43,957 nt of DNA, taken from positions 1 to 43,957 of the forward strand of contig JACPHC010000009.1 in assembly GCA_016188775.1 (NCBI GenBank), written 5' to 3'. The number at the start of each line of letters is the position of its first letter. The stretch's first letter is position 1. The notes under the pieces are model-generated. The model did not search any database. It worked only from the letters and a program-made list of their open reading frames with translations, and was not told the origin of the DNA. Origin of the DNA: Parcubacteria group bacterium (lineage in GTDB: Bacteria; Patescibacteriota; Minisyncoccia; JACPHC01). This document shows, piece by piece, positions 40,666-43,957 of this stretch. A program made the translations under genes and the position numbers.

Positions 40666-41829
40666 ATGTCTTATCAGGTTTTATACCGAAAATACCGGCC
40701 AAAAAAGTTTTCCGAAATTATCGGCCAAAATCATATCGTTGGTACTTTAATGAATGCCGTAAAATCGGGAAGAGTCGGCCACGCTTATCTTTTTTCCGGG
40801 CCTCGGGGCACGGGAAAAACGACCATCGCGCGGATTTTGGCTAAGACGGTAAATTGCGCCAATTTGTCTAAAATTTCCGGAGGAAATATTGATGACAAAT
40901 TGAGCGTCCGCCGAAGCGAAGCAAAGGCGGACAGCTATTTTTTCGAGCCTTGCAATTCCTGCGAACTCTGCCTTGATTTTAACGAAAGTAGAAATCTTGA
41001 TTTGATTGAAATAGACGCGGCTTCTTCCAGGGGCATTGACGAGGTTCGGGAATTGCGGGAAGGAGCTCGTTTCAGTCCCTCGCGCTCTAAATTCAAAGTT
41101 TACATTATTGACGAAGTTCATATGATGACTAAAGAGGCTTTTAACGCTCTTTTGAAAACATTGGAAGAGCCGCCGGCTCACGCGATTTTTATTCTGGCCA
41201 CGACTGAACCGGATCGCTTGCCTTTGACAATCCGATCTCGCTGTCAGCATTTTCATTTTTGGCGGCCGAGCGTCAATCAAATCATTGAACGTTTAAAATT
41301 TATCAGCCGGGAAGAAAAAATTAAAGCCGAAGAATCGGCTCTTCGTTTGATAGCCAAATCGGCTTCGGGGTCAATGAGAGACGCCGAAAGCCTTTTTGGC
41401 CAGGTGATTACGCTCGAGGACAAAGAGATTAAAAAAGAAGAAGTGGAAGAAATTTTAGGCGTCGCTCCTTCGGAGTTTGTAAAAAATTTTCTCAGGCATG
41501 TTTCTGAAAAAGACGCGCGTTCGGCTATTCATTTGGTCGGCCGTATTTACGACGAAGGCTATGATTTGGGCGAGTTTAATAAAAATTTAATTACTGATTT
41601 AAGACACCTATTGCTTTTAAAAATTGATCCGAAATTTAAAACCGTTTTAAAAGAGGATTTAACTTCTGACGAAATTGAAGAGCTTGAAAAAATGGTTGTT
41701 GTTTTGGACGCGAAAAATTTGGAAAACGGCTTAAAAATTTTTCTTGAAGCTAATCAGAATATAAAAAAATTTGTTTATCCCCAGCTGGCCCTAGAAATGG
41801 CGGTTGTGGAATATTGCGGGATCGTCTAA
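40666..41829 (+). CDS. dnaX: DNA polymerase III subunit gamma/tau
   Basis: YQVLYRKYRPKKFSEIIGQNHIVGTLMNAVKSGRVGHAYLFSGPRGTGKTTIARILAKTVNC...CNSCELC...VYIIDEVHMMTKEAFNALLKTLEEPPAHAIFILATTEPDRLPLTIRSRCQHF. Confidence 0.95.
   Translation: MSYQVLYRKYRPKKFSEIIGQNHIVGTLMNAVKSGRVGHAYLFSGPRGTGKTTIARILAKTVNCANLSKISGGNIDDKLSVRRSEAKADSYFFEPCNSCELCLDFNESRNLDLIEIDAASSRGIDEVRELREGARFSPSRSKFKVYIIDEVHMMTKEAFNALLKTLEEPPAHAIFILATTEPDRLPLTIRSRCQHFHFWRPSVNQIIERLKFISREEKIKAEESALRLIAKSASGSMRDAESLFGQVITLEDKEIKKEEVEEILGVAPSEFVKNFLRHVSEKDARSAIHLVGRIYDEGYDLGEFNKNLITDLRHLLLLKIDPKFKTVLKEDLTSDEIEELEKMVVVLDAKNLENGLKIFLEANQNIKKFVYPQLALEMAVVEYCGIV
40906..40932. repeat. In-frame palindrome GTCCGCC-GAAGCGAAGCAAA-GGCGGAC inside dnaX
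   Basis: 7-bp GC-rich arms; encodes SVRRSEAKADS within the zinc-binding region. Confidence 0.75.
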
Positions 41830-41885
41830 TGGTAGGACATCGCCCTTTGAAGGCGAGTATCTTGGTTCGAGTCCAAGTCCCGCAG
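41815..41885 (+). tRNA. tRNA-Gln (anticodon TTG), CCA not encoded
   Basis: TGCGGGA/TCCCGCA acceptor, TCGCC-CTTTGAA-GGCGA anticodon arm, TTGG-TTCGAGT-CCAA T arm. Confidence 0.92.
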
Positions 41886-41910
41886 CTTCGGTCAGGAGTT
41901 AAAATGAATT

Positions 41911-42023
41911 TGGCGGGGTGAAGTAGGACATCGCCCTTCTTGCCCCGCCGTAGAGGCGGGGTGAAAAGGCGAGTATCTGGCTTGCCCCGAAGAAAGCGGG
42001 GGTTCGAGTCCAAGTCCCGCAGC
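41911..42023 (+). pseudogene. Degenerate tRNA-Gln copy with two hairpin insertions (41939-41961 in the anticodon loop, 41981-42001 in the T arm)
   Basis: GTAGGACATCGCCCTT...AAGGCGAGTATCTGG...GTTCGAGTCCAAGTCCCGCAGC matches 41815-41885 interrupted by CTTGCCCCG...CGGGG elements; 5' acceptor/D region not conserved. Confidence 0.8.
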
Positions 42024-42202
42024 CACATTGTATTAATCGGAAAGGGTGCCTCGCGGCTTCGCCACTCGGCATTGAATTCAGCGAGAATTTGCCAGTCATT
42101 TTTGAACGAAACCGAAACCGCTCGCTCCGCGAGCTGTGGGTTCGAGCCGACTTTTTCAAGATAATTTTTCTTTTCAGAAAAATTATCTCCCAAAGCGACA
42201 GA
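42020..42202. repeat. Left arm of the inverted repeat flanking the serine recombinase (3' end of the recombinase gene)
   Basis: 42020-42135 is the near-perfect reverse complement of ~43611-43731; broken homology continues to CCAAAGCGACAG at 42191-42202. Confidence 0.88.
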
Positions 42203-43507
42203 ATTAGCTTGGTGAGCGGCTAAAATGAGATTCTTTGTCCGTTCGAGCCAGCGATTGCCCTTTCGCTCAAAATCTTTCAATTTCTGCTCAATATCAATTT
42301 TGCGTGCGAGGATTTTGTTTTTCTTGGCGGTATATTCCTCGCCAGTAATGGTCTTTTCCAAATGAGCGTCTAAAAGCGTGTCCAACTTCTCCTCGCACGC
42401 CTTTACCTCGTTTTTGAGATTTTGAGCGAACAGGGCATCAGATTGGGCGGTGCTCGCTTCATCTGTTTTTAATTGCGCGAGCATCGGTTCCGCCCAATCT
42501 TTCGGTAAAGAAACTTTTTGAAGTATGTCGGAAATCTGCGAGGCGAGAACTTCTTCGCGGATATAGGGTTGCGAACAAACATCTTTCTTTTTCGTACAGC
42601 GATAGTAGACATAGTGCCGACCACTCTTTTTAGTTTTGTCTTCGGCGGTAATGGCGCAACCACACTCTCCGCATTTCAATAATCCGCGAAAAATATATGT
42701 CTTCTCGCCTCGCTTCTTGGGTCGGGACTTTTCCGACATGACTTCTTGGACTTTATCAAAAAGTTTCTTTGTTATCGCTGGCTCATGCTTGCCTTCGTAT
42801 AGCTCGCCGTTGAACTTAAACGCGCCGTAGTAAAACGGATTACGAAGTATCATTTGGATATTGGAAACAGTCAGCCGTTTTCCGTTCCGGCTCACCAAGC
42901 CAATTTCGGTAATTTCATTTCGTAAATCTTTCAGAGAATAATTTTTGGTTGCGTACAATTCAAAAAGTTTTTGGACGAGGCGATAGCGTTCAGGGTCTTT
43001 CACCATTTTGTGATTCACTTTGTCGTTCAAGTATCCGGTAGGGGCAACGCCCGGATATTCGCCTCGTCTTACTTTTTGACGCAACCCTCGTTTTACATTC
43101 TCTGAAAGATTATCAATATAGTATTTGGATTGCCCAAAAGCGATATTCAACATGAATTTTCCTTGCGGCGTGGCATCAAACCAAAAAGTGGGAAATTTTA
43201 GCTCACGAATTTTGGTTGTATCAATCAAATAAATTACTCTGCCGCCATCGACACTGTTTCTAGCCAATCTATCAGGATGCCACGCCAAAATTCCTTGGGC
43301 AAATCCTTTCTCTACGAGCGAGAGCATTTGGTTAAAGATAGGTCGCCCCGGCTCTTTGGCGGTCTGACTTTCTATGAACTCCTGCACTATCTCCAAATGC
43401 TCTCGCTCACCGAACTCACGCAACTCGGTTATTTGCGCCTCAATACTCAAAATTTGCCTATCCGGTTCATCGGTTGATTTTCTTGCGTAGAGAAAGAATT
43501 TGCTCAT
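42040..43507 (-). CDS. Large serine recombinase (resolvase, recombinase, zinc-ribbon and coiled-coil domains); native C-terminus unclear, ORF stays open to 41750
   Basis: [21 protein letters not shown] (catalytic Ser), [18 protein letters not shown], zinc ribbon [46 protein letters not shown]. Confidence 0.92.
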
Positions 43508-43528
43508 ATCGCTTTTGGGCTAAAAATT

Positions 43529-43731
43529 ACTGTCGCTTTGGTTTCCGCCAAAGGCGGAAAAGAAAAAGTCGGCTCACAAATTTCATTTGTATTCCGCTTT
43601 GCGGAATGAACCCCCAGCTCGCGGAGCGAGCGGTTTCGGTTTCGTTCAAAAATGACTGGCAAATTCTCGCTGAATTCAATGCCGAGTGGCGAAGCCGCGA
43701 GGCACCCTTTCCGATTAATACAATGTGGCTG
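43529..43731. repeat. Right arm of the recombinase-flanking inverted repeat, carrying extra nested palindromes (43542-43560 and 43576-43607)
   Basis: Encodes [41 protein letters not shown] on the + strand, the same peptide as the recombinase C-terminus on the - strand. Confidence 0.85.
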
Positions 43732-43786
43732 TGTCTCCTGAACAAAATCCGAACTTTTTACCAAACGAACCCCGACGAATGAAGCC

Positions 43787-43931
43787 GCCCCGCCGCCGCT
43801 CGCTGACACTCGCCGTACCACAGAAAAATACTCTTTGCTCTTTTCATTTTGCGCGCGCCGGATTTCTTTTTCTCCTAATGAAAAGAGTATTTTTCTGTGG
43901 TGCTTTGCTTTGACAAGCAAGGCGGCGGGGC
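43787..43931. repeat. Large composite hairpin: GCCCCGCCGCC...ACCACAGAAAAATACTCTTT...AATGAAAAGAGTATTTTTCTGTGGT...GGCGGCGGGGC
   Basis: 11-bp outer GC arms and ~25-bp inner arms with a 7-nt bulge. Confidence 0.82.
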
Positions 43932-43957
43932 TGGCCTCTATTTTTTGAAAGGGAATG

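Follow-up and report, generated by a model that had tools for sequence, protein, structure and literature searches.

Why should a serine recombinase gene sit between two inverted copies of its own 3′ end? This question is raised by a 43,957-bp stretch of Parcubacteria DNA, hereafter the window, which makes up the whole of contig C2 in a 767 kb genome of 10 contigs. The original prediction had read the arrangement as a candidate self-inverting cassette, or else as a decaying inverted duplication. We compared the locus with related recombinase loci from two samples, 55 scanned genomes of the same class and 80 loci from GTDB genomes, the loci being chosen by similarity and the assemblies being MAGs.

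The arms, the gene and its two tails

A repeat search confirmed that the inverted repeat is real: its arms, 42020–42143 and 43608–43731, are slightly longer than had been predicted (124 nt, one mismatch, 99% complementary), lie 1464 nt apart and flank a large serine recombinase (LSR). The weaker homology reported beyond the arms, as far as 42202/43529, is likewise visible in the sequence, where indels interrupt it. The recombinase comprises the Resolvase, Recombinase and Zn_ribbon_recom domains (Pfam), the set that marks the LSR of a serine-integrase integrative element, and its closest solved structures are the YokA recombinase and the A118 integrase. The locus contains the following features, named according to the attachment sites proposed below.

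41815–41886, plus strand: intact tRNA-Gln (TTG), upstream of the insertion point (ARAGORN, Rfam RF00005)
41913–42023, plus strand: tRNA-Gln-like pseudo-copy with extra inserts; 42001–42023 is a 23-nt exact repeat of the tRNA 3′ end
42020–42023, plus strand: J1 core CAGC, where the tRNA 3′ end meets the left arm (putative attL), common to the J2 core and to the J3 core on contig C8
42020–42143, minus strand: left arm, putative attP half P′, with the last ~40 recombinase codons before the core (repeat search; same position in 82 relatives)
42144–42202, minus strand: diverged inner extension of the left arm, partner 43529–43607 (sequence)
42164–43507, minus strand: LSR, conserved part, 448 aa (ORF list, Pfam, relatives)
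43608–43731, plus strand: right arm, putative inverted P′ copy with spare gene 3′ end (repeat search)
43611–43782, plus strand: spare copy of the native recombinase ORF end, which runs across the core, NPQLAER... (ORF; tail conserved in relatives)
43728–43731, minus strand: J2 core (GCTG on plus, CAGC on minus), centre of the putative retained inverted attP (core comparison)
43728–43957, plus strand: X, putative half P of attP and also the terminal repeat of the cargo module (229/230 identical to C8:1–230 reversed)
43749–43754, minus strand: GTTCGG, the attP motif of zinc-domain type, with its start 23 nt from the core (motif profile, sequence)

As the original prediction held, the repeat is built from the gene's own 3′ end and its two sides give two different C-terminal tails. 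The integrated ORF runs on the minus strand from the ATG at 43507 through the left arm and on, antisense to the tRNA-Gln-like copy and tRNA-Gln, to a stop at 41750 (585 aa), whereas the peptide of the left arm is encoded again, on the plus strand, by the right arm, where it continues into a 16-residue tail ending at 43782. When the gene is read through arm, core and X, the native tail past the core measures 12–19 codons in most elements and follows the pattern (I/V)RTxF..NPD. The expression used for the tail search demanded the Arg, so that its invariance reflects how the sequences were selected; the codon spread is free of this effect, CGA, CGG and AGA being used for Arg and each of the four possible codons for Thr. 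These varied Arg and Thr codons therefore argue for conservation at the protein level. Integrated tails are tRNA antisense and span 0 to about 90 codons. The 16-residue tail on the right-arm side is the native one and the tRNA-antisense tail a product of integration. In sequences from many genomes, integration swaps the last 12–19 native codons for tRNA-antisense codons, and the retained copy preserves the native end.

A second recombinase of the same genome (C10:309–1877), sharing 53% protein identity with the window LSR, has the same arrangement, with 100% identical arms at 137–250 and 1698–1811 adjoining tRNA-Val; an X′ partner of this element was not found in the genome. Within one LSR clade, the inverted repeat of the arms (IR1) was present in 82 of the 89 rows with enough flank, and it was missing from 10 rows outside the clade, setting aside the very distant locus L058, which has arms. 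Since the C10 recombinase and most relatives share the arrangement, a chance origin of the repeat is excluded. Judged by these comparisons, the inverted repeat is shared by about a hundred related mobile elements of Patescibacteria. Their hosts belong to many candidate phyla and are mixed in the recombinase tree. Mid-contig examples are numerous, and the closed genome AP024682.1 (L101) carries two tandem elements at one tRNA-Ser.

Attachment sites at tRNA genes and the cargo between them

The elements share a common layout, in which a tRNA 3′ end is followed by an arm, the recombinase with its 3′ end first, the other arm, and then X, cargo, X′ and the chromosome. The inverted X copies (IR2) were present at 31 of the 39 loci with more than 2.5 kb upstream, and IR1 mostly has a few bp in common with IR2 at J2 (mode 4). 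At the opposite end, arm and tRNA overlap by 4–6 bp in 48 of 54 cases. The core corresponds to the 3′ end of the occupied tRNA, being CAGCCA for Gln, CCGCCA for Ser, CCACCA for Ala and GCTCCA for Gly, among others. Furthermore, a GTTCGR motif starts 23 nt from the core in X as compared to 18 nt in the tRNA T-arm, and in 39 of 45 elements, compared at one half-site only, this spacing differs between tRNA and J2 by exactly 5 bp. In serine integrases, attB and attP are told apart by a 5-bp displacement of the zinc-domain motif (PMC3783163). In the window, the GTTCGA of the tRNA-Gln-like pseudo-copy begins 18 nt before the core, like that of intact tRNA targets, and the T-arm and acceptor end of this copy would constitute the attB half adjoining the element. 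Two independent lines of evidence, the 5-bp motif shift and the conserved native tail, support our proposal that J2, where arm meets X, is the centre of an intact attP and that J1 and J3 represent attL and attR, respectively. This attP spans the recombinase's own 3′ end, and a second, inverted attP is kept together with the spare native 3′ end.

As in other serine-integrase integrative elements, a short core is common to the putative attL, attR and attP. The window junctions read tRNA-CAGC-CACATTG at J1 and CAATGTG-GCTG-TGTCTCC at J2, and J3 (GGAGACA-CAGC-AAAAATG) belongs to contig C8, where a gene recognized by eye as phosphoglycerate-mutase-like lies downstream of it. Contig C2 ends within X, 226 nt past the right arm, and X is found at the ends of both C2 and C8. 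We infer the genome order C2, missing cargo, C8, and took the other end of the window element from C8; its cargo is absent from the assembly. The X of the window folds into a strong hairpin (z −6.3), a property that we dropped as a defining feature of X, its strength varying from z −6.6 to +1.0 among relatives.

The tRNA genes beside the elements show further peculiarities. The tRNA-Gln-like copy at 41913–42023 also contains a small palindromic insert, and at G000 C3:106494–106657 (L012), like in the window, tRNA-Gln genes are followed by truncated tRNA-Gln copies, which at both places are probably leftovers of earlier integrations. Group I introns (Rfam RF00028) lie in or near tRNA genes beside elements at L049 (11251–11466 and 11959–12199), L085 (9513–9849) and L087 (7461–7722), and such introns can hide a tRNA from ARAGORN.

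Between the X copies, 34 cargo modules of about 0.75–7.4 kb were delineated. The commonest families among their 98 proteins are N6 DNA methylases, Eco57I-type methylases, AAA/OLD ATPases, restriction subunits and NUDIX proteins, and PADLOC matches include type I/II methyltransferases, Old, AbiLi, PglX and AriA; a replication family was absent among the 25 listed Pfam families of cargo proteins from integrated loci. Judging from this gene content, the elements appear to be small vehicles for genes of defence and accessory functions. Cargo genes are mostly oriented opposite to the recombinase in 33 of the 34 modules, and exclusively so in 25.

Several loci depart from the common form. L058 (G002 C10) encodes a recombinase of only 26% identity and has both inverted-repeat pairs at a tRNA-Asn, reflecting either a separate origin or a very old feature. 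Distant LSR genes of gut 'Bacteriophage sp.' contigs (L191, L192) and of a Legionella adelaidensis plasmid (L193) run to or into a tRNA gene, and the inverted repeat is absent in these plasmid and phage relatives (about 30% identity); attachment at the gene's own 3′ end may be older and wider than the doubled attP. Tandem arrays were seen at L101 (AP024682.1), at L118 with L125, and at L130, the newer element having apparently inserted between the tRNA and the older one; at L130, a single cargo is enclosed by two recombinases, of which one shares only about 29% identity with the family. A decayed third element (G000 C7:43900–48200; L013 5900–10330) has inverted X copies around its cargo and has lost the upstream arm; its frameshifted recombinase ends at a tRNA-Ser, and by eye its cargo encodes a methyltransferase, ASCH-like, phosphatase, DUF5680-like and HTH proteins. 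Beside the element at L165 (6200–18800; G039 C1:378.2–390.7 kb) extends a 12.5-kb stretch with copper-resistance-like genes (by eye); a 465-nt exact repeat begins at the att core on both sides.

Orientation of the recombinase and alternative explanations

The search of related genomes that the original prediction had suggested revealed the cassette in either orientation. Among 108 distinct loci, 73 have the gene 3′ end at the tRNA (standard), 7 are flipped (L032, L074, L078, L087, L090, L120 and L133) and 28 lack an identified tRNA; among these last, L101 and L118 adjoin a further element, and at L085 the neighbouring tRNA contains a group I intron. Three flipped loci have 91–93% identical sisters in the standard orientation. 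In six of the seven, the sequence stops at the distal arm or short of it, which would fit an ambiguous or polymorphic junction there, and at these loci assembly choice may underlie the orientation. The remaining one, L133, is flipped in mid-contig, with the native tail (CAFEKIRTEFAKN, then stop), a complete arm-core-X and two arms unlike each other. Orientation can accordingly change, yet it is strongly biased.

A freely self-inverting cassette of the phase-variation kind, its gene being turned over between the arms by its own product so that tail or expression changes, would account for inverted arms with inverted cores, for the two tails, and for flipped loci (7 of 80) with close sisters in the opposite orientation. 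The two tails of the original prediction stand and both orientations do occur in relatives, but self-inversion as the main feature of the cassette is not supported, the arms being accounted for as attachment-site halves tied to tRNA and X. In addition, canonical serine integrases do not carry out attL × attP recombination (PMC3783163). Together with the 73:7 bias of the recombinase and the 33:1 bias of the cargo, this rule argues against free flipping. We thus regard such a cassette as unlikely: the geometry would allow inversion, whereas free flipping is not supported by the distribution of orientations. The decaying inverted duplication also offered originally was rejected, because the arms are conserved in 82 relatives and because arms within an element have a median identity of 99.2%, as compared to 84–92% between some sister elements with 91–93% identical genes, in a set preselected for arms above 85% and in which the between-element arms of a few sister pairs are up to 95–98% alike.

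Two independent nested elements with terminal inverted repeats, arm-recombinase-arm and X-cargo-X′, might instead share one recombinase. Each module is indeed bounded by its own inverted repeat, and at L130 the cargo lies between two different recombinase modules; nevertheless, both the native gene end and the 5-bp-shifted motif presuppose a single attP in which arm and X adjoin, and the standard order of tRNA, recombinase and cargo recurs, making this explanation improbable. A function at the RNA level, with the mRNA 5′ leader pairing with the 3′ end and the repeat being kept for regulation, would fit near-perfect arms at both gene ends, but leaves the X copies, the tRNA-end cores and the 5-bp motif shift unexplained, and we give it very little credence. 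As to a fold-back misassembly or chimera, which the original prediction had named as a possible refutation, the window contig does end shortly after the arm, and at 31 loci the contig stops no more than 700 nt from the 5′ end of the recombinase. The same structure is, however, found mid-contig in many genomes and in the closed genome L101 (AP024682.1), which excludes misassembly as a general explanation; moreover, arms differ between elements and contig breaks are what real repeats cause, so that an artefact is scarcely credible.

A proposed integration cycle and its relation to known systems

We consider it highly probable that the locus represents one end of an integrative element, which its LSR inserts at tRNA 3′ ends and whose attP (P being X, P′ the arm) spans the 3′ end of the gene and occurs as two inverted copies flanking that gene. 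Integration via the attP at the gene 3′ end generates the order tRNA, P′-recombinase-P′, P-cargo-P, chromosome, in which attL adjoins the tRNA, attR marks the opposite end and an intact attP stays inside, as the sequences of many genomes show. Excision by attL × attR should release a circle with two inverted attP sites, either of which could integrate, one outcome being about ten times commoner. Owing to the retained copy, a rare inversion, or integration via the other attP, would yield a native-tail recombinase reading away from the tRNA. In the version that we favour, the standard form, with its foreign tail and convergent to the tRNA, would be quiet, and the flipped form, with the native tail and reading away from the tRNA, might be active and short-lived. 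This quiet/active step is a speculation, since recombination between attL and attP is not carried out by canonical LSRs (PMC3783163); as canonical serine integrases recombine neither attL × attP nor attP × attP, the inversion step may need an additional factor. It is possible, and we suggest it tentatively, that a bacterial integrase is switched off or retuned by its own insertion within the 3′ end of its gene and carries an inverted spare of that end, inversion between attL and the retained attP then restoring the native protein. A search for empty sites in relatives of G039, G002 and G032, all too distant, returned only the two flanks apart or unrelated tRNAs, and no circular record of the element was found. 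A 100% repeat of the right flank at G039 390.7 kb was rejected as an empty site, since it belongs to a tandem peptidase gene family, and a 4.6 kb viral contig (L150) was rejected as a closed circle, having no terminal repeat.

The A118/LI integrase type and the SCC recombinases CcrA/B/C resemble the present LSR in domain order and in the 5-bp attB/attP motif shift (PMC3783163). The present element differs from them by targeting tRNA 3′ ends, by an attP across its own gene 3′ end, and by having this attP twice and inverted, one copy persisting after integration. Classification as an SCC element (Ccr family, rlmH target) was rejected, the NCBIfam matches to CcrB/XisF scoring far below the curated cut-offs and the targets being tRNA genes. 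The nearest concept is provided by the 'suicidal' integrases of Archaea. These SSV-type integrases target tRNA genes. Their attachment site lies inside the integrase gene, and this gene is altered on integration, a mode described as exclusive to Archaea (PMC8371274). They are tyrosine recombinases whose gene is split by attP, whereas the bacterial element encodes a serine recombinase that exchanges only its last codons and keeps a spare 3′ end; it does not belong to the SSV type. Integrated tRNA-gene islands with defence cargo share tRNA attachment, tandem accretion and defence genes with the present element, which in contrast is very small (LSR plus ~0.8–7 kb) and has a serine recombinase and a doubled attP. 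In the yeast 2-micron FLP/FRT system, the recombinase gene 3′ end lies in one of two inverted repeats that contain the recombination sites and separate two unique segments. The present element resembles this layout but is integrative and tRNA-targeted, with a serine instead of a tyrosine recombinase and no replication gene seen. A survey of LSRs does not mention tRNA in its main text (PMC10083194), and none of the titles and abstracts returned by our literature search dealt with an attP that is doubled and inverted. Neither this feature nor a gene end spanning attP appears to have been described in the literature searched.

In sum, the data point to a compact and widespread mobile element of Patescibacteria that uses many different tRNA genes as targets, apparently employing the universal tRNA T-loop as one attachment half, and that carries anti-phage defence cargo. 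The many attP/tRNA pairs represent a large natural set for learning the targeting rules of LSRs. The doubled attP and the attP-spanning gene end offer a direct test of how a self-altering integrase can be kept and, if true, the inversion between attL and the retained attP would be a reversible answer to the paradox of 'suicidal' integrases.
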